A program made the position numbers and the translations under genes. From positions 33,562-97,561 of the IMG/VR virus record IMGVR_UViG_3300012003_000002: DNA of 64,000 nt; one strand, 5' to 3'. The notes under the pieces are model-generated. The model was not told where the DNA came from, searched no databases, and worked only from the letters and a program-made list of their open reading frames with translations. Every line of letters begins with the position of its first letter. Position 1 is the stretch's first letter. This document shows positions 31,160 through 58,098 of the stretch, one piece after another. The stretch comes from a virus.

Positions 31160-31534
31160 ATGAACACAAAATTCAAACCAGTTGTTAACACAACTACAGG
31201 TAAAACAGACTTCAATTTCCCTGCGGAATTAGTATCAATCTCTGATAAAGAGATGACTAACAGCAAGGGAACTAAGTATGTATTAGGTAATGTGAACTTC
31301 ACATATCCTAACGGTACACCAGCTAAAGCTGTTACTACTCAGATATTTGCTAAGTCATTAGCACACGGTATCAAAGTAGGGTCTATATTACTATCTACAT
31401 TATCTAAAGATGATGAAGGTAAGTTATGGATCAGAACATCTCACTTATCTGCTGGTAACAACATCGATACAGACGCATTTGGGTCTATGTTTGATGAAGT
31501 TGCTGTAGCTGAACCAGTTGCTGCTGAAGCATAA
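31160..31534 (+). CDS. Highly expressed small acidic-tailed protein, possible OB-fold DNA-binding protein
   Basis: A 124-residue protein with even codon use unlike its neighbours, beta-rich (KGTKYVLGNVNFTYPNGTPAKAV) and with an acidic, Ala-rich C terminus (DTDAFGSMFDEVAVAEPVAAEA). Its own structured leader and strong terminator make it a single-gene unit, first on the rightward side. Size, beta content and acidic tail would suit a single-stranded DNA-binding protein. No diagnostic motif proves it. Confidence 0.5.
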   Translation: MNTKFKPVVNTTTGKTDFNFPAELVSISDKEMTNSKGTKYVLGNVNFTYPNGTPAKAVTTQIFAKSLAHGIKVGSILLSTLSKDDEGKLWIRTSHLSAGNNIDTDAFGSMFDEVAVAEPVAAEA

Positions 31535-31565: not shown

Positions 31566-32066
31566 TCTATAATAACTTATTATGTGTGAGTATTTGAAAC
31601 AATTCTCTACAACTTTTACATTTAATTGTGAATCATATAATAGGTTATAATAGGTTAATGTTGTCAATTAAGTTTTAATACATTATAATGAAAGTGGTGA
31701 GGAAATAAGCTTTATATTATAATTGCTAAAACTTTAATTGGTGACTAATATTAAAGAGAATATGATTAGGATTAAAACTTTAATGTTATTGTTGTGAGTA
31801 CAGGTGTGAACTCTCAAATTAATAGTGGTTAAAGCGGAAGGTTACACATTAAATTGTCCGAAGTGTTTAACAGATTGACCACTATTATTTTATTATAACT
31901 TGTTGATAGTGAGGTCTTTGTTACTTCATCACCACCAATTATCACACTTCAACTACAACTCCAGTTACACAACTATAAATATAGTTATAGCTTTTACATC
32001 AATAATATAACCAATTCAATTAAGTTATTCTACATATATTTACACACAATTTATTAAAATTATACT
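31566..32066 (+). other. Noncoding region with candidate structured RNAs
   Basis: No open frame of note. Two candidate RNAs can be drawn. One is closed by 31656-31669 and 31728-31741 (about 13 pairs with one bulge). The other is 31821-31886 (separate entry). Direct repeats of AAAACTTTAAT occur near 31728 and 31775. A further AACTATA/TATAGTT hairpin lies near 31970. No promoter is evident by eye. Confidence 0.5.
31821..31886 (+). ncRNA. Candidate small structured RNA (66 nt)
   Basis: Closing stem AATAGTGGT / ACCACTATT (9 pairs, three of them G-C) and an inner CGGA/TCCG stem. U-rich sequence follows. Same size class and layout as the elements at 32663, 32740 and 32814. Strand is assumed from the surrounding rightward genes. 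Confidence 0.5.
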
Positions 32067-32267
32067 ATGAAATATATCTCAAAATGTCCAATAACTAATA
32101 AAATAGTAGGTATGTGGACAATAATTCCAGGTTTCTACAACTTAAAAGGTCAATTTATAAGATATGAAATAGGTTATTATTGTAATTATAATAAAACCAT
32201 ACACAAATCTAGAAAAGATTATTTAAATTGTAAACATTGTAAACAAAACAAATTATTAACTGACTAA
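32067..32267 (+). CDS. Small Cys-rich protein of 66 residues
   Basis: Starts MKYISKCPITNKIVGMWTI, is basic and aromatic, with Cys at residues 7, 39 and in YLNCKHCKQNK, giving a CxxC knuckle at the end. It may bind zinc. It is the first gene of the micropeptide-rich stretch. No family is recognised. Confidence 0.5.
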   Translation: MKYISKCPITNKIVGMWTIIPGFYNLKGQFIRYEIGYYCNYNKTIHKSRKDYLNCKHCKQNKLLTD

Positions 32268-32278
32268 ATAACAAAATT

Positions 32279-32359
32279 ATGAAAAACTTTGACAAATTTA
32301 TTACCTATATATCATTTAAGTTATATGGTAAACGACAACCAATGTGGACATTTCAATAA
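32279..32359 (+). CDS. Possible micropeptide of 26 residues
   Basis: ATG at 32279 in an AAAATT-ATG context like the neighbouring genes, encoding a short basic aromatic peptide (MKNFDKFITYISFKLYGKRQ...). Only start context and packing support it. Confidence 0.5.
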   Translation: MKNFDKFITYISFKLYGKRQPMWTFQ

Positions 32360-32374
32360 CTAAATTATAATATT

Positions 32375-32563
32375 ATGTCAACATATTCAAATGAACCACA
32401 ACAAAACAATTGGGAAATATGGTTTGTAACATCCGTTATATTATTCATATCAACATTGATCTGGGGATCAATTGATATAGAACGACCAGTTATATATGAC
32501 GGACTATTATTTGCAATATTTATAAATTTAATATATTGTATTTATAAAGGTTTTCAAAAATAA
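32375..32563 (+). CDS. Small membrane protein of 62 residues
   Basis: Two membrane segments (about residues 14-30 and 43-58) separated by a short charged loop. The start context is AATATT-ATG. No family is recognised; such small early membrane proteins often affect the host envelope or superinfection. Confidence 0.5.
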   Translation: MSTYSNEPQQNNWEIWFVTSVILFISTLIWGSIDIERPVIYDGLLFAIFINLIYCIYKGFQK

Positions 32564-32568
32564 TAATT

Positions 32569-32652
32569 ATGAAACAATTCATAATCAAATCAATAATATC
32601 TTTATTTATAATAACAATTGTTATTTATATATTTAGAGATATTATAATATAA
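32569..32652 (+). CDS. Single-pass membrane micropeptide (27 residues)
   Basis: ATG at 32569 five bases after the previous stop, encoding MKQFIIKSIISLFIITIVIY and a short basic/acidic end. One clear membrane helix. The start context (AATAATT-ATG) matches the neighbouring genes. Confidence 0.5.
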   Translation: MKQFIIKSIISLFIITIVIYIFRDIII

Positions 32653-32662
32653 ATTCTCAATG

Positions 32663-32728
32663 ACTATTGTAAAAGATATTGGTCAAGCCCAATCAATTTG
32701 TAGTTCAATGAAGAATAATTACAATAGT
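32663..32728 (+). ncRNA. Candidate small structured RNA (66 nt)
   Basis: Closing stem ACTATTGTAA / TTACAATAGT (10 perfect pairs), an inner ATTGG-TCAAGC-CCAAT hairpin and a weaker TTC/GAA arm, then five U. It is the first of three adjacent elements of the same architecture. By length it could be a reduced tRNA-like RNA, but no anticodon arm can be named. Confidence 0.5.
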
Positions 32729-32739
32729 TTTTAAAATAA

Positions 32740-32799
32740 AAAGGGAAGAGGTGCATGGTCATTAAATGCTGGTTGGTAGAGAACGAGGTTCTTCCCTTT
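32740..32799 (+). ncRNA. Candidate small structured RNA (60 nt), D-loop-like motif
   Basis: Closing stem AAAGGGAAG / CTTCCCTTT (9 perfect pairs, four G-C), an inner GCAT/ATGC hairpin, an AAC/GTT hairpin and a GTTGGTAGAG stretch that resembles a tRNA D-loop. It starts 11 bases after the previous element. Confidence 0.5.
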
Positions 32800-32813
32800 A
32801 ATAATATTAATTA

Positions 32814-32880
32814 TTACCATATGTGTGGAGTGAAACTCTCCACTAATTAACGATTCTTTTTAGAATAAACCATATGGTAA
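32814..32880 (+). ncRNA. Candidate small structured RNA (67 nt), three-way junction
   Basis: Closing stem TTACCATATG / CATATGGTAA (10 pairs), then GTGGAG-TGAAACT-CTCCAC (6 pairs, 7-base loop) and ATTCT-TTTT-AGAAT (5 pairs). This is the clearest three-way junction of the set. U-rich sequence follows. Confidence 0.5.
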
Positions 32881-32914
32881 TGATTTTTTTAAATAACAAA
32901 CTAAATATATAATT

Positions 32915-33052
32915 ATGAATAGAAATAAAATAGAAAGATATATTCTTTCAAAAGAACATTCAAAACATCCTAATTTAATATTTGGTTTAACAGTATTTTG
33001 TGTCATTATAATTATGACCTCAATATTATTTTATATTAAATATTCAATTTAA
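32915..33052 (+). CDS. Single-pass membrane protein of 45 residues
   Basis: ATG at 32915 in the usual AATT-ATG context. A charged N terminus (MNRNKIERYILSKEHSKH) precedes a membrane helix of about 20 residues. No family is recognised. Confidence 0.5.
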   Translation: MNRNKIERYILSKEHSKHPNLIFGLTVFCVIIIMTSILFYIKYSI

Positions 33053-33127
33053 ACAAAACAACACTAACATAGACAGAAGTCTTTGAAGAAGGGTAGCGTA
33101 TAATAAGTCTTAGTTTGCTACAAAACT

Positions 33128-33160
33128 AACCACTGGAATTAATAATTAGTTCTAGTGGTT
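33128..33160 (+). terminator. Long hairpin upstream of the tmRNA
   Basis: AACCACTGGAATTAAT pairs with its near-complement ending AGTGGTT (14-15 pairs including two G-U), followed by TTATAATAAAA. It may end transcription of the micropeptide stretch or mark the tmRNA precursor's 5' side. The U-run is weak. Confidence 0.5.
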
Positions 33161-33178
33161 TTATAATAAAATAAATAA

Positions 33179-33540
33179 GGGGTCGACTGGTTTTGACAGG
33201 TAGATAATAAATATATAATTCAGCCAGAGAGATAACTGTAAACTAAGGTGAATATTTTTTAAACGGCAAAAATCAACAAACAGCCAATATGGCTAAAGTT
33301 TTTTCTCTAATCAATTCTGATATAACTGAATTTGAATTAGCAGCATAGTTTAAAACGGTCAGTAAGTTAATTCGCGATGTGCATTAATCCTGAACCAAAC
33401 TCAAACTATAGAGTAATTTAGTATTGGTCCACATTTAGTAGTTTTTAAAGGACAATAAAGATTAAATTCTACAATAAGCTGTATAAAATTATATATTAAA
33501 AACTATTTTGGACCCGAGTTCGATTCTCGGCGACTCCACA
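33179..33540 (+). ncRNA. ssrA: tmRNA (transfer-messenger RNA)
   Basis: The 5' end GGGGTCG-ACTGGTTTTGACAGG is the tmRNA signature. The 3' end has a T arm CCGAG-TTCGATT-CTCGG and CGACTCC, which pairs with GGGGTCG over seven pairs including G3-U70, the alanine identity pair; the discriminator is A and only CA of the CCA is encoded. The tag frame probably resumes at GGC 33265-33267 and runs 27 codons to TAG 33346-33348, starting GKNQQTAN and ending TEFELAA, so the LAA degradation signal is kept while the tag is long. tmRNA rescues stalled ribosomes with host SmpB. Confidence 0.5.
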
Positions 33541-33645
33541 GCTGTTATCTGAATTAGCACTAGGACGATAACTATCATTGGTGGAAGCTAATCACTTGAA
33601 TGATCCTGTAAGTTGTGACCAGTACACGTAAAAAGACACTTACCA
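33541..33645 (+). ncRNA. Structured region after the tmRNA
   Basis: Three successive hairpins can be drawn: GTTATC/GATAAC (33544-33572), ATCATT/AATGAT (33574-33604) and GTAAGT/ACTTAC (33608-33643). It may be the trailer of the tmRNA precursor or a separate RNA ended by 33646-33693. There is no open frame. Confidence 0.5.
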
Positions 33646-33693
33646 GTTAGAATAGGTGTGAACGGTTTTTCCCGTCAAGTTCTAACATTTTTT
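33646..33693 (+). terminator. Rho-independent-type terminator of the tmRNA region
   Basis: GTTAGAA / TTCTAAC (7 pairs) with an inner ACGG/CCGT stem, followed by six T. Confidence 0.5.
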
Positions 33694-33739
33694 AAATATA
33701 AATAATTAAAGATAATACAGTCCGTGTAAACTGTAAATA

Positions 33740-33862
33740 AATAACATTTAGTGCAAATGTCTAGCACCCTTATCAGTAGATGTAACGAATTAAGCAGCGT
33801 GTTGCGCATAAGTAAAACAACTTAATTTGGGGAAATGTAGATTGACAACCTACAGTGTTATT
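33740..33862 (+). ncRNA. Candidate cloverleaf-like RNA (123 nt)
   Basis: Closing stem AATAACATT / AGTGTTATT (9 pairs, one G-U). Inside are GTGC/GCAC, AATTAAG/CTTAATT (with GCG/CGC nested) and TGTAG/CTACA hairpins, giving a four-way layout larger than a tRNA. There is no open frame. Confidence 0.5.
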
Positions 33863-33875
33863 TTATAAAAATTAC

Positions 33876-33954
33876 TATTTAAGCTAGTTTATAAACAGCA
33901 ACACTTAGCGATTGCGCAGCAATAGTGAAAAAGGTGTGATTCCTTATTTAAATA
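33876..33954 (+). ncRNA. Candidate tRNA-like cloverleaf (79 nt)
   Basis: Closing stem TATTTAA / TTAAATA (7 perfect pairs), a D-arm-like GCT...AGC hairpin enclosing GTTTA/TAAAC, a long arm CACT...AGTG with ATTGC-GCA-GCAAT at its tip, and a T-arm-like AAGG-TGTGATT-CCTT with a 7-base loop. The middle arm lacks a normal 7-base anticodon loop, so it is not a standard tRNA. A GGAC/GTCC hairpin follows. Confidence 0.5.
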
Positions 33955-34036
33955 CGGACTAACGTCCAAATAATATTAATAAATTAAAAATAACTCTAAA
34001 TTAATATAAAGAGTATGACTCAATAATAATTATATA

Positions 34037-34089
34037 ATGTTGCTAGGCTTGTAACCTAGAAATGGAGGTTTAAATCCTCGTGCTACAAC
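34037..34089 (+). tRNA. D-arm-less tRNA-like element, anticodon UGU (Thr-like)
   Basis: A perfect anticodon arm CTAGG-CTTGTAA-CCTAG (34043-34059) has U33, anticodon TGT and purine 37. A T-arm-like GAGG-TTTAAAT-CCTC follows at 34065-34079. The outer stem is short: GTTG (34039) with CAAC (34086), or an imperfect 5-7 pairs. There is no D arm between acceptor and anticodon arm. A standard tRNA finder would probably miss it. Function as a tRNA is doubtful but the anticodon arm is too good to ignore. Confidence 0.5.
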
Positions 34090-34235
34090 TCAGAAATAGT
34101 AAGCATTAACATAATAATATAATTATTGAAAAGGTTAAATATTACATAAGTACAACTAAAATCCGATATTCTTAAATGAATACAAAACCTATTGTGGAAT
34201 AATAGTAAGCAATAGTTATAAATATATAAAATCAA

Positions 34236-34297
34236 AAAATGTTGCTAGGGGAAAACGCTTACGACCTTACTATCTGTGAATGTCAGATCAACATTTT
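34236..34297 (+). ncRNA. Candidate tRNA-like element (62 nt), relative of the one at 34037
   Basis: Closing stem AAAATGTTG / CAACATTTT (9 pairs) and a T-arm-like ATCTG-TGAATGT-CAGAT (5 pairs, 7-base loop). Its first 12 bases after the A-run, AATGTTGCTAGG, are identical to the element at 34037. An open frame that starts at 34239 runs through it into the next gene, but I take that start as spurious. Confidence 0.5.
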
Positions 34298-34325
34298 ATT
34301 ACAAAACAAACTAAATATTAAAATT

Positions 34326-34715
34326 ATGAACACAGAAAAATTTACAACAGTAACTTACACATTAGAAAATGGAACTAAAATTGTGCAACCTATTAATAAA
34401 CAAGCTTTTGTTAATGAAAAAGGTCGTCTTAGAACAGAAGCTGAAATGCATAAATTATTTGCAGAAACCGCTTGGGATAAAAGAGCTGTCTCATACACTA
34501 TTGATTCTGAAACAAATGAATCATTATCAACAGATAAAGAACTTCACTTCACTAAAAATGAAAGAAAAGTAGCTAAAAGAGATTATAGAGAATTTCAAAA
34601 ATCTAATTCATTAGGTTTCAAACATTCTTTAAAAGCTTTTCAAAAATTATTTGTTGATTCATTAACAAATAATAGAAGAATTAGAATGAATATCGGTAAT
34701 ATAATTTTACAATAA
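34326..34715 (+). CDS. Small basic protein of 129 residues, unknown
   Basis: I take ATG 34326, in the local AAATT-ATG context; the upstream 29-codon extension lies in a structured RNA. Product starts MNTEKFTTVTYTLENGTKIVQ, beta-rich then helical and basic (FTKNERKVAKRDYREFQKS), which would allow nucleic-acid binding. No family is recognised. Confidence 0.5.
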   Translation: MNTEKFTTVTYTLENGTKIVQPINKQAFVNEKGRLRTEAEMHKLFAETAWDKRAVSYTIDSETNESLSTDKELHFTKNERKVAKRDYREFQKSNSLGFKHSLKAFQKLFVDSLTNNRRIRMNIGNIILQ

Positions 34716-34725
34716 TAAAATCTTA

Positions 34726-34979
34726 AATTAAATCACCTAATCCTTAAAATGGCTAGGAATTAATTATTATAATCAAACAGTTACTCCCTTTACGTTTATT
34801 TATAAACAACCAGGTCATCACTTTAATAATATTATAATAACAAAATTTGTAAGAGTTAATTATTATTTAGAATATTAAAATTATTTACTGCTAGTAAACT
34901 TATTAGAAGAAGACACTAAATACTACAATTTTAATACAATAAATAAATAATTTTCGCCACTTACTTAGGTGATTTAATT
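34726..34979 (+). ncRNA. Large inverted-repeat-bounded noncoding element (254 nt)
   Basis: AATTAAATCACCTAA (34726-34740) and its exact 15-base complement at 34965-34979 close the element. Inside are TCCT/AGGA (about 34741-34758), GTTTAT/ATAAAC and TACT/AGTA hairpins. No open frame of note and no transposase. It fills nearly the whole gap between two small genes. It could be a structured RNA or a replication or packaging site; strand is assumed. Confidence 0.5.
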
Positions 34980-35006
34980 AAACTAACAAACTAAAACTAA
35001 AAAATT

Positions 35007-52443: not shown

Positions 52444-53295
52444 ATGAATAAATTAAAAAAATATAAGTTATACAGGAGTTTAGTTTTATCGAGACATCCA
52501 TCTCACTCTATTTTAAGAGCTAAAAATCAAACATTACCATTATTACCATTTAGATCTGTAATAAGACTTGGATCGTCAACAGAATCTGATGGTAGATTGG
52601 AAATAAATACTGCAGAAGCAGTTAAAAATTCCGCTTCTAAACTGTTAATGAAACAAAAGTTTTCTGAAGCTGATGTTAAAACTGCTAATTGGTGGAAATT
52701 GTTAGCAAATGGTGAAGTATTTAATGGTGTAACTGGTAATACTACAAATGGTAATAATCATCATTTTGAAGATTTACCATTTCCTTTAGTAGCAAAATCT
52801 CACTTTGGTTCAAGAGGTATTGGTAATACTAAATTTAATACTATAGAAGAATTAAAAGCTTGGTTACCAAATAAAAATCTTAATAATTATATATTTGAAA
52901 AGTTTGTTAAAATGACTAGAGAATATAGATTACACATAACTAAATTTGGATGTTTCTATACTTGTAGAAAATTAGTTAAAAATGATGCTCCTGAAGATAC
53001 TTGGCAAAAACACGATGATGTTTGTAATTGGGTATTAGAAGAAAATCCATCATTTAAGAAACCTAAGAATTGGGATAGTATTGTTGCAGATTGTATTAAA
53101 GCAAAAGATGCTTTAGGATTAGATATTTGTGCATTTGACGTAGGTGTTCAAGGTGCTAAATATGGTATTGAAAGAGAAAATCCTGAATGGGTTATATTTG
53201 AATCGTGTAGCGCACCATCATTTGGTGATATAACAAGTCAAAAATATATAGAAATCTTACCAAAATTATTAATAGATAAATATAATAACAAATGA
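52444..53295 (+). CDS. ATP-grasp ligase (phiEco32-type)
   Basis: A 283-residue protein. The ATP-grasp parts are PLVAKSHFGSRGIGNTKF (Lys and Gly-rich loop) near residue 118, IFEKFVKMTREYRLHI (adenine and Arg) near 155 and FESCSAPSFGDITSQ near 257 (metal-binding acid/Asn site). The enzyme should join an amine to a carboxylate via an acyl phosphate. It overlaps the next gene by four bases, in the amide cluster. Confidence 0.5.
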   Translation: MNKLKKYKLYRSLVLSRHPSHSILRAKNQTLPLLPFRSVIRLGSSTESDGRLEINTAEAVKNSASKLLMKQKFSEADVKTANWWKLLANGEVFNGVTGNTTNGNNHHFEDLPFPLVAKSHFGSRGIGNTKFNTIEELKAWLPNKNLNNYIFEKFVKMTREYRLHITKFGCFYTCRKLVKNDAPEDTWQKHDDVCNWVLEENPSFKKPKNWDSIVADCIKAKDALGLDICAFDVGVQGAKYGIERENPEWVIFESCSAPSFGDITSQKYIEILPKLLIDKYNNK

Positions 53296-54275
53296 ATCCA
53301 GAATTAATAGAAAAAATAAATCAATATAATATAAATTATAATACTAAAAAAGAAATTGTTCATTCATTTTTAAATAGTTCTATTTCAGGATCCTTATATT
53401 CTGAAATAGAAGGAGATAGTATGAGTGATAAAATAGAAACTATTTATCATTATTTAAATAATATAGTTAAAGAACCAGAAATAAAACAAACTTTAAATAT
53501 TGTAATTGCAGATGATGCTTCATCTTTATATTATGTATCATATTTAAATGAAAAATATGAAGTTATTGTTCATAAAACAAAAGATGTAAAAGATGTAAAA
53601 GATATTGATTTAGTGTTATTTACAGGTGGTGAAGATGTTAATCCTGCACATTATGGTGAAAATGTTGGTAAATTTACAAGTATTAATAAATCTAGAGATG
53701 ATAAAGAAATAGATACTTTTTATAGATTTAGAGAACATTCTTTATTATTAGGGATATGTCGAGGAAATCAGTTATTAACGGTTTTAAGTGGTGGTAAATT
53801 AATTCAACATGTAGAAGGTCATGGTAGAGATCATTCAATGATTTTAAACAATAGAATGAAATATAACATTACTTCTTCACATCACCAAATGATATATCCT
53901 TTTGATTTAAATGAGAAAAGTTATGAATTAATTGCTTATTCTGAATATTTTCAAAGTAAAACATATCTTAATGGAGATAATAAAGAAGTTGAATTATCAA
54001 AAAACTTTTTAGAACCTGAAATTGTTTATTATAAAAATACAAATGCATTATGTATTCAAGGTCATCCTGAATGGAGTCATTGTGAAAGAAGAACTTCTTC
54101 AATGTGTTTAAATTTAATTGATAAATATTTGAAAGAATTTAAAAAATCAAAAGAATTAAATACTTCACTCCATTCTCAAATATTATCAATTCCTTTAAAA
54201 TCTCAATGGGACGATAATGATGATCATTATGATGATAATGAAAAATATTATGAAGAAGAAAACTTACCACTTTAA
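53292..54275 (+). CDS. Second class I amidotransferase-like hydrolase with helical extension
   Basis: A 327-residue protein. The C26-type core runs from DLVLFTGGEDVNPAHYG to LGICRGNQLLTVLSGG (nucleophile Cys) and IQGHPEWSH (His and Glu). An N-terminal helical domain (residues 1-65) and an acidic tail (DDNDDHYDDNEKYYEEENLPL) are extra. The paralog at 51331 lacks these. It precedes the COOH-NH2 ligase gene. Confidence 0.5.
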   Translation: MNPELIEKINQYNINYNTKKEIVHSFLNSSISGSLYSEIEGDSMSDKIETIYHYLNNIVKEPEIKQTLNIVIADDASSLYYVSYLNEKYEVIVHKTKDVKDVKDIDLVLFTGGEDVNPAHYGENVGKFTSINKSRDDKEIDTFYRFREHSLLLGICRGNQLLTVLSGGKLIQHVEGHGRDHSMILNNRMKYNITSSHHQMIYPFDLNEKSYELIAYSEYFQSKTYLNGDNKEVELSKNFLEPEIVYYKNTNALCIQGHPEWSHCERRTSSMCLNLIDKYLKEFKKSKELNTSLHSQILSIPLKSQWDDNDDHYDDNEKYYEEENLPL

Positions 54276-56178: not shown

Positions 56179-58098
56179 ATGGTAAAAATAATTCTAATAT
56201 TAGCATTATTACAGTATATATATAACTTTATATTTGGTTATAAATTAAATATATTAAGTTGTGGAATTTTTGGACAAGCTACAAACAAATCTAAAAATTT
56301 AGATGTTAATGGTGTTCATATCTTAGGAATATATAATATAGAAAGAGGTAAAATGTCTTGTGGATTATCTTGGGATGGAGATATACAGTACGGTCTTGGT
56401 TTAGATAAATTATATACAGATTTTATTATAGACAGAGAAATTAAACCTACTAAAATTCCTATTATGATTGGTCATACTAGACAACCTAGTTATGGTTTTG
56501 CAATTACTGAAGATAATGCACATCCATTTGGATTTGGAACAAGTAAAAATAAAGAAGGTTATGAAATGATTTTCTGTCATAATGGTACTTTAAAAAATCA
56601 TAAAGAATTAGCTAAAAAATATGATATTGACTTATCTGAAAAAATTCAAAAACAATCACATGGAGGTCATTTTTATGAAACAACTCGTGATAAAATTGAT
56701 AGTGAAATATTAGGAGAAATATTATATAAAACAAAAAAATTTCACATTTTAAGTGAATATATTGGAGCTGCTGCTTTAGCTTGGACTTGGATAGATGAAC
56801 CAAATAAATTATATTTATGGTCTGGTGCATCTAAACAAACACAAGGATCTGTTATAGTTACTGAAATAGAAGAAAGACCTATGAATGTTTATTGTAAAAA
56901 TGAAAATAATATGTTTTTTTCATCTATACAGGATAGTTTAACTGTTTTAGGAGCATCTAAGAAAAATGATTTACAAATAGATTATAATACTGTTTATATT
57001 ATTACAGATGGTGATTTTACAAATGCTGAAAAACATAAAGTTAGTCGGCTGCAGGCAGGACAAAACGAAATTGTTACATATAATACAAAATATAACCATT
57101 ACGGTAATGAATTTTGTGACTGGGATAACTATGAAGATGTAAGAGAAAAAAATAAAAATGTTAGAACTACTATTGATACAGAAAGTACTAATACTTCAAT
57201 GACAAATTTACATAACGATAAACCAATTCGAGCTATTGTAGATTATAATGGTAAAGTATATTCTAAAAGTTTAAGATATTGGGAAAATGGATCTCTTATA
57301 AATGGTATTTATGTTTATATTAAAAATTGGGGTTTTAAATTTACAGGAAATGATTCTTTTGTATCAGGTAATTTTATTAAAAACATAAAAGGTTTATCTT
57401 TTAATTATATAACAGGTACTTTTAATTATAATATATTAAATACAGAAGGGTTTATTCCATTTAAAAAAGATATTGATAATATACAATTTCATTATTTTAT
57501 AAATGGTGTTTTATTAAAAACTTCTGAAGATTATAATAGAGCAGTTATTCTACAAAAAGAATTAAAAGTACCAATTAAATATATTAATCATCAAATATTA
57601 TCTCATATTTCTAAACATCCTATAATTGATATGGATCCTACAAAAACAGTATCTATTGCAATGTTAGATGGTAAATCTTTTACTGGAAATATAACAGAAT
57701 TAGGTTTTGAAAAAATATATTATTTTACTAATGGAATATTAACAAAATGGGTTAAAAGAGAAGATTTGATAATTAAAAAAGAAACTCCTGTTATAATGTT
57801 ACCTGCTGTTATAGAATCAAGTAAATTTGATAAAGAATTATTTGATAATTCTATTAAATCTATTGAAACTTTTGAAAAAAATATTAGAATAGAAGATATT
57901 GCTAAAGAATTGGAAGATGAAACTTTTATAAAAGAATTGATTATGGAATCTTTTGAAAGACATTCTGAAGAAGTATCTGAAACAATTATTGAACTTTCTG
58001 ATTGGAAAGAAAATGAAATTGTTAAAACAGCTTTAAATACATTAAATTTAATAAGTCATACATTAAAAGACTTTGTTGAAAAACCTAATAAAAAATAA
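56179..58098 (+). CDS. Class II glutamine amidotransferase with N-terminal leader
   Basis: A 639-residue protein. Residues 28-230 are an Ntn glutaminase: CGIFG (Cys28 nucleophile), GHTRQPSYGF, FCHNGTLKNH and DSEILGEILY. The Cys must become N-terminal, yet here it is preceded by a hydrophobic 27-residue leader (ILILALLQYIYNFIF) and no start codon lies directly before it. A cleaved propeptide, as in some PurF enzymes, or a signal sequence is implied. The C-terminal 400 residues match no family I know. It should supply ammonia to a ligase of the cluster. Confidence 0.5.
   Translation: MVKIILILALLQYIYNFIFGYKLNILSCGIFGQATNKSKNLDVNGVHILGIYNIERGKMSCGLSWDGDIQYGLGLDKLYTDFIIDREIKPTKIPIMIGHTRQPSYGFAITEDNAHPFGFGTSKNKEGYEMIFCHNGTLKNHKELAKKYDIDLSEKIQKQSHGGHFYETTRDKIDSEILGEILYKTKKFHILSEYIGAAALAWTWIDEPNKLYLWSGASKQTQGSVIVTEIEERPMNVYCKNENNMFFSSIQDSLTVLGASKKNDLQIDYNTVYIITDGDFTNAEKHKVSRLQAGQNEIVTYNTKYNHYGNEFCDWDNYEDVREKNKNVRTTIDTESTNTSMTNLHNDKPIRAIVDYNGKVYSKSLRYWENGSLINGIYVYIKNWGFKFTGNDSFVSGNFIKNIKGLSFNYITGTFNYNILNTEGFIPFKKDIDNIQFHYFINGVLLKTSEDYNRAVILQKELKVPIKYINHQILSHISKHPIIDMDPTKTVSIAMLDGKSFTGNITELGFEKIYYFTNGILTKWVKREDLIIKKETPVIMLPAVIESSKFDKELFDNSIKSIETFEKNIRIEDIAKELEDETFIKELIMESFERHSEEVSETIIELSDWKENEIVKTALNTLNLISHTLKDFVEKPNKK

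Follow-up and report, generated by a model that had tools for sequence, protein, structure and literature searches.

What is encoded in a stretch of phage DNA where coding density drops around a transfer-messenger RNA (tmRNA)? The locus lies within a 64-kb portion (the window, meaning the whole stretch analysed) of the 97.5-kb virus record IMGVR_UViG_3300012003_000002, a Crassvirales phage whose major capsid protein fits the Crassvirus capsid family PF23898 (E = 5e-167) and which also encodes a crAss-type portal and large terminase. Such crAss-like phages are among the most abundant known. The RNA island directly follows the first gene (31160-31534) of a rightward gene block, with minus-strand genes to its left. 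From sequence comparison, we propose that this 3.4-kb stretch holds about ten structured RNA genes beside the tmRNA, and that it is probably an array of short structured noncoding RNA genes acting in trans, which belong to several distinct families, some of them resembling transfer RNA (tRNA).

A preliminary description of this DNA had noted the tmRNA, a drop in coding density and eight elements with complementary arms (numbered 1 to 8 here), and had read the elements as a single family of small phage RNAs. The arms are present where they had been placed, with small corrections, and long stems exceed those of shuffled sequence: 8 closing helices between 31535 and 35006 score at least 24, whereas local shuffling, repeated 30 times, gave 2.0 +/- 1.3 (maximum 5). 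Coding density does drop, yet conserved small open reading frames (ORFs) persist at 32067-32267, 32279-32359, 32375-32563, 32569-32652, 32915-33052 and 34326-34715. The tmRNA was recovered with a covariance-model match, a tag ORF and tRNA-like ends. The list of eight elements proved incomplete, as 31568-31662, 31656-31760, 33055-33170, 33541-33695 and 34005-34230 are also structured. The tmRNA and the families with the strongest comparative evidence are:

33179-33539, plus strand: tmRNA with tag GKNQQTANMAKVFSLINSDITEFELAA, found by ARAGORN and by Rfam model RF00023 (66 bits, E = 1.2e-23)
33055-33170, plus strand: family A, upstream of the tmRNA; hairpin 33071-33082, covarying hairpin 33093-33121 and terminator-like hairpin 33128-33160 with a U tract
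33714-33875, plus strand: family C, comprising element 5 and a 5' hairpin (33717-33734); closing stem 33739-33747/33855-33863 and D-arm-like hairpin 33751-33767
33873-33955, plus strand: family E33876 (element 6); D-arm-like hairpin 33883-33899, hypervariable arm 33900-33930 and T-loop hairpin AAGG-UGUGAUU-CCUU 33931-33945
34720-34982, plus strand: family B (element 8); 15-bp closing stem 34726-34740/34965-34979, inner hairpin TCCT/AGGA, variable interior
31568-31662, plus strand: family F1; 15-bp closing stem 31572-31586/31634-31648, variable interior

Covariation in relatives supports several unrelated families

Syntenic islands were taken from IMG/VR scans in eight contigs (L018, L022, L019, L017, L021, L023, L004 and L002), and L027, L077 and L106 were obtained via pattern searches. 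Across relatives, the protein genes flanking the island are colinear, and noncoding elements are gained, lost and exchanged; inside single elements, the ends and core are retained and the middle is often swapped out.

For families A, C and E33876, covariation exceeds that of shuffled and of slid controls. The eight sequences of family A contain nine double-change pairs and 18 such cells, against 5.0 expected, with none of 500 shuffles as good. Family C, for which model R1 was built, carries a hypervariable arm (~20-200 nucleotides, nt) on stem 33786-33829, and its T-arm-like hairpin 33836-33854 abuts the closing stem. Double changes occur at 13 of its 33 pairs with 97.7% of cells paired (8 sequences), a large share of this covariation being contributed by the single divergent member L106; no shuffle out of 500 was as good on any measure, and slid controls were far lower.

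Family E33876 has a compact design in which an invariant UUAAGCUAGUUUAURAACAGC hairpin is followed by a variable arm of 0-90 nt and then by a covarying T-loop hairpin with the loop UGNGANN. In a 12-sequence alignment, the covariation score was 0.454 against 0.137 for shuffled versions; helices 3 and 4 are almost fully paired and contain 7 double-change pairs, three of which fall in helix 4, the T-loop stem (100% paired). The preliminary description had drawn a closing stem around 33876-33954. The hairpins inside it are real, but the closing stem itself lacks conservation, with pairing in 62% of cells and no compensatory change. The core and T-loop hairpin recur in ~20 other phage contigs among the first 120 matches listed, and model R2, which scores E33876 at 66 bits, also matches Cellulophaga phage phi14:2 and other phages. 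Use of the 15-mer CTAGTTTATRAACAG as the sole family test was dropped; alone it gives mostly chance matches, and the T-loop hairpin is therefore required for assignment to this family.

Consensus folding energies computed with RNAalifold, expressed as z scores against column-shuffled alignments, were -10 for F1 (6 relatives, 5 double-change pairs), -10 for A, -11 for C and -7 for B. In family B (8 sequences), the closing stem occurs as ATCACCT/AGGTGAT and as ACCATCT/AGATGGT. The remaining alignments, from elements described below, gave -7 for F2 (5 relatives, few double changes), -3.6 for both H and D, and -2.1 for block G (6 relatives, p = 0.03). Single-sequence energies were most extreme at 32809-32885 (z = -6.7), followed by 31660-31745 and 34726-34979 (both -3.9), 33062-33162 (-3.8), 31571-31648 (-3.1) and 31821-31886 (-2.9), against a background of random 66-nt pieces elsewhere in the window with a mean of -0.18 and 6% under -2. 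Values for 33740-33862 (-0.5) and 33876-33954 were ordinary. Energy alone is thus misleading, because family C has a z score of -0.5 and strong covariation.

Absence of compensatory changes in relatives had been named beforehand as grounds for discarding the idea of a series of small structured phage RNAs. When relatives were compared, such changes were found, and the idea is supported by covariation. Homologs and compensatory changes back 31821-31886, 33740-33862, 33876-33954, 34236-34297 and 34726-34979, but no homolog was found for 32663, 32740 or 32814. The grouping into one family did not survive, the elements splitting into several unrelated sequence families; a single tRNA-like family is rejected, since matches between the families are lacking and no tRNA score exceeds 20 bits.

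Further elements of the island

The other elements of the island are:

33541-33695, plus strand: family H; GTTATC/GATAAC 33544-33549/33567-33572, pseudoknot TTAGC/GCTAA 33554-33558/33587-33591, 3' hairpin and U tract
34005-34230, plus strand: family D, with homologs in L022 and L017; long stem 34024-34035/34117-34128 around two hairpins
34236-34297, plus strand: element 7; 9-bp closing stem, core GCUA...ACUAUCUG...CAGAUC and a variable arm
31656-31760, plus strand: family F2; 13-bp stem 31660-31672/31733-31745, variable interior
31820-31887, plus strand: element 1; 13-bp stem 31820-31832/31875-31887 enclosing a free-standing pseudoknot arm
31893-32020, plus strand: block G, conserved noncoding sequence, probably structured
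32662-32729, plus strand: element 2, an unproven orphan; 11-bp stem around two small hairpins, overlapping a 24-aa ORF (32660-32734); energy z = -2.2, p = 0.03
32740-32799, plus strand: element 3, an unproven orphan; 11-bp stem; energy z = -1.5, p = 0.08
32809-32885, plus strand: element 4, the region's best helix; 15-bp stem, two inner hairpins, then a T run; energy p<0.002

In family H (3 sequences), double changes occur at 14 of 33 pairs. In family D, an anticodon-like hairpin, CTAGG-CUUGUAA-CCTAG (34043-34059), is followed by a T-arm-like hairpin (34065-34079), and the anticodon-like stem CTAGG/CCTAG becomes ATAGG/CCTAT in L017, the consensus energy of this family standing beside just one double change. 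Element 7 has homologs at a different position in L004 and in L113, L123 and L126, where it lies upstream of tRNA-Cys; its closing hexamer, ATGTTG/CAACAT, is TACCTG/CAGGTA in a homolog, with 4 of 6 pairs changed on both sides. This comparison with L113 was made by eye, as the MAFFT alignment was wrong at the 5' arm.

On the left, the pseudoknot of element 1 is formed by CGGA/TCCG (31835-31838/31857-31860) crossed with ACAC/GTGT (31844-31847/31863-31866). It is 86% identical over 59 nt (E = 1.4e-7) to the pseudoknotted arm of family J, described below, in L068 and L070, where the second stem differs by two compensatory changes (ACAC/GTGT versus GTAC/GTAC), and by this similarity we regard it as a relative of that arm. 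The 32814 element is far more stable than chance would give, and one of its inner hairpins has a T-loop-like 7-nt loop, UGAAACU; as with 32663 and 32740, homologs were looked for and none was found.

Several observations concern the surroundings of these elements. At L021 2230-2290, a single pseudoknot module is all that is left of the tmRNA, standing alone after the family A terminator. The 26-codon ORF at 32279-32359 (MKNFDKFITYISFKLYGKRQPMWTFQ) is kept in 5 relatives with mostly conservative changes, and the 27-codon ORF at 32569-32652 was found again in L021; both are likely microproteins. Elsewhere in the window, neighboring genes at 52444-54275 and 56179-58098 encode an S6-glutaminyl-transferase-like (ATP-grasp) protein and glutamine amidotransferase-like proteins.

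Further RNA families in sister islands and a cultured phage

The islands of relatives contain additional motifs, families I and J, which have no copy in the window and were searched for in IMG/VR, where J occurs in 74 stretches and I in 32. Family J is a ~250-500-nt RNA with the invariant blocks CTCAGCAAGTAGTTA, TAACTACRTGACCCTACTCTT and GAGGGTGCTAA and several hypervariable arms, some apparently pseudoknotted; copies include L070 3803-4185, L027, L022, L023, L080 (phi14:2) and ~70 other contigs. Family I, found at L018 6808-7008, in L121, L112 and L115 and in ~25 other contigs, has the closing stem ATCACTTG/CAAGTGAT and two hypervariable arms; two of its hairpin loops both contain CTAG and could kiss. 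A scan of 84,980 bacterial and archaeal genomes found no exact motif of J or E33876, and by exact match both are therefore phage-specific.

The cultured phage phi14:2 (Crassvirales, Steigviridae) holds J, an E33876 match (E = 2e-4) and a looser copy of I that was matched by allowing mismatches, so that the role of phage structured RNAs is directly testable in a laboratory phage. Over J, the phi14:2 record annotates just small hypothetical ORFs, which run on the opposite strand, and we consider the minus-strand ORFs called over these RNAs spurious.

Endonuclease genes adjoin some copies. L017 1373-2300 contains a family I copy, then a GIY-YIG endonuclease gene on the minus strand, then a second copy of the RNA 3' end, as if a homing gene had carried a replacement end for the RNA. 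At L033 6826-7330 and L036 3822-4300, HNH_3 endonuclease genes immediately precede the 3' half of a J copy whose 5' half differs, which may be an intron-like or homing insertion in J. These arrangements show that mobile genes also use the RNAs as targets or as carriers. A further ~60-nt hairpin element, ACAACACTTTAGTCAGTCAATTACAGRTAATGCTGGRTTGACTGAT, is near-identical across diverse phages (L018 5833-5893, L022 6104, L017 555, L004 10099, L103, L111 and others) and often lies close to family K (AAACTCT...GGTGCAACCTTGT(G)AGAGTTT).

Trans-acting RNA genes versus other readings

We asked whether these elements are better read as RNA genes in their own right or as parts of neighboring transcripts. 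Homologs of the window's families, and I and J, occur in unrelated phage contigs, and the genes downstream of them are nearly all unrelated: 19 gene clusters for 21 loci of I, 43 for 53 of J and 21 for 22 of E33876. Families I, J, E33876 and K are thus independent of any particular downstream gene. Where two families lie within 1.5 kb, they share a strand in 26 of 26 cases. Together, the unrelated downstream genes and this co-orientation favor co-transcribed trans-acting RNA genes over gene-specific leaders. A purely cis-acting role, in which the elements are 5' or 3' untranslated-region structures, terminators or processing hairpins between small genes, is unlikely to account for the island, although U tracts end several elements (33128-33165, 33648-33692, 32809-32892), terminator-like hairpins end A and H, and family B always precedes the same gene block in relatives. 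Against it stand the unrelated genes that follow E33876, I, J and K, the placement of the 34236 element elsewhere in L004 and upstream of tRNA-Cys in L113, and the fact that terminators need no conserved cores with pseudoknots, T-loops and hypervariable arms. For family B and the elements ending in U tracts, a cis role is possible.

The preliminary description had cautioned that some stems arise by chance in DNA this rich in A and T. The caution fits 32663 and 32740, which have no homologs and energy p values of 0.03 and 0.08, and the claimed 33876 closing stem, which is not conserved; that most stems are random, the best of many having been picked, is extremely improbable given the excess of long stems and the covariation in A, B, C, E33876, F1 and H, and is refuted for the region as a whole. 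We also give little credence, less than to a cis role, to the view that the elements are selfish or fossil RNAs (tRNA or tmRNA remnants, introns or homing-endonuclease target modules) kept by recombination and not by function. The lone tmRNA pseudoknot of L021, the likeness of the 31820 element to a detached J arm and the endonuclease genes in or beside I and J copies (L017, L036, L033) speak for it, but the cores are near-invariant across very diverse phages and the arms stay paired, as would not be the case for fossils.

Some results weigh against trans-acting RNA genes, or against parts of the case for them. Proximity to tRNA or tmRNA genes is mild for J (16 versus 9.0 expected) and E33876 (14 versus 9.0) and absent for I (9 versus 9.5), and family B keeps one neighborhood in all eight members. 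Chance may account for the stems of 32663 and 32740; just 2-3 distinct sequences make up each of the alignments for D, H, 31820 and 34236; and the 97.5-kb record contained no TROVE/Ro (PF05731) protein. In the E33876 alignment, arms were trimmed by hand and helix 3 was set in register by hand after the variable arm was trimmed, which makes helix 4 the safer evidence.

If the island is an array of trans-acting RNAs, these would be read on the plus strand where the rightward block begins, along with the tmRNA and the small proteins. Each RNA combines a conserved self-folding core with at least one hypervariable arm, and in most families a stem holds the ends together. Several cores use pseudoknots and parts that resemble those of tRNA (a T-loop hairpin, a D-arm-like hairpin, an anticodon-like loop). 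The RNAs may be processed or terminated into stable forms, which could act in trans on the host translation or RNA-processing machinery or serve as decoys for host RNA-targeting defences. Cores are conserved while arms, from 0 to ~200 nt, are unalignable, and the combination of a conserved core with fast-diverging yet paired arms suggests that the RNAs contend with a partner that itself changes; we therefore prefer a decoy or translation-directed action during host takeover, under which the arms would diverge fast in conflict with the host. More tentatively, and with more doubt than belief, trans-acting core-and-arm RNAs, several of them tRNA-like, may form a modular arsenal of Bacteroidota phages. 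By exchange and diversification of their hypervariable arms, these RNAs would block host RNA-targeting defences, act as decoys for them or take over the ribosome. If true, this would be the RNA counterpart of a phage protein anti-defence island.

At least five covariation-supported families (A, B, C, F1 and E33876) are missing from Rfam 15, as are the more thinly aligned candidates D, H, 31820 and 34236 and the sister-island families I and J, both very common. No island element except the tmRNA reaches Rfam 15 thresholds, and no model finds any of these RNA families in the island or its relatives, where the sole matches are tmRNA and tRNA. The open-access papers searched contained no description of such arrays in crAss-like phages, and as far as these papers and Rfam show, the families appear to be new. 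Phages thus appear to carry an unexplored set of functional RNAs, and gene callers are blind to these families.

Comparison with known RNAs

The preliminary description had suggested tRNA-like RNAs. This holds for 33876-33954, in which a D-arm-like hairpin and a T-loop hairpin surround a variable arm, for the cloverleaf-like 33714-33875 and for 34037-34090, with its CUUGUAA loop and T-arm-like hairpin, but not for B (34726-34979), A (33055-33170) or F1 and F2 (31568-31760), which have no tRNA-like plan. C, E33876 and D share with tRNAs and phage tRNA arrays a closing stem, a T-loop and D- or T-arm-like hairpins, and E33876 has a T-loop hairpin, a 7-nt UGNRA/UUNRA loop on a covarying stem; some relatives directly adjoin tRNA genes. 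Unlike tRNAs, C and E33876 have neither a full anticodon arm nor a CCA-type acceptor, and no island element other than the tmRNA reached the tRNA RF00005 gathering score of 29 bits, the best being 20.1 bits at 34016-34088 (family D). With the tmRNA, which sits mid-array and whose lone pseudoknot survives in L021, the array shares pseudoknot modules and a T-arm; its other elements lack a tag ORF and are not matched by the tmRNA model.

Bacterial Y RNA (YrlA, RF02553) also places a tRNA-like module within a noncoding RNA, but this identity was rejected, as the sole YrlA match (L134) is the T-arm and D-arm of two tandem tRNAs and the phage's own record contains no TROVE/Ro protein. A TROVE (Ro-like) protein is encoded in one of 25 other phage records checked, L246 (58846-59064; the record of L115), in a phage with family I. 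Self-cleaving ribozymes were likewise rejected, with no Rfam family matched in the island and a twister-P3 match in L134 at 25.8 bits, under the 39.9 cut-off. Models for GOLLD, ROOL and OLE gave no match at E<=3 in the island and none in the relatives, and identity with these RNAs is rejected. GOLLD and ROOL are ornate phage and prophage RNAs near tRNA islands, of function not established (Nature 2025, PMC12286853). Like the island RNAs, they are phage-encoded, elaborate and pseudoknotted, often lie near tRNA islands and have a variable region (PMC12286853); they differ in being >600-800 nt long, compared with 60-350 nt for the island RNAs, and the island sets many distinct families side by side. 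GOLLD and ROOL are nonetheless the nearest known kind to the island RNAs.

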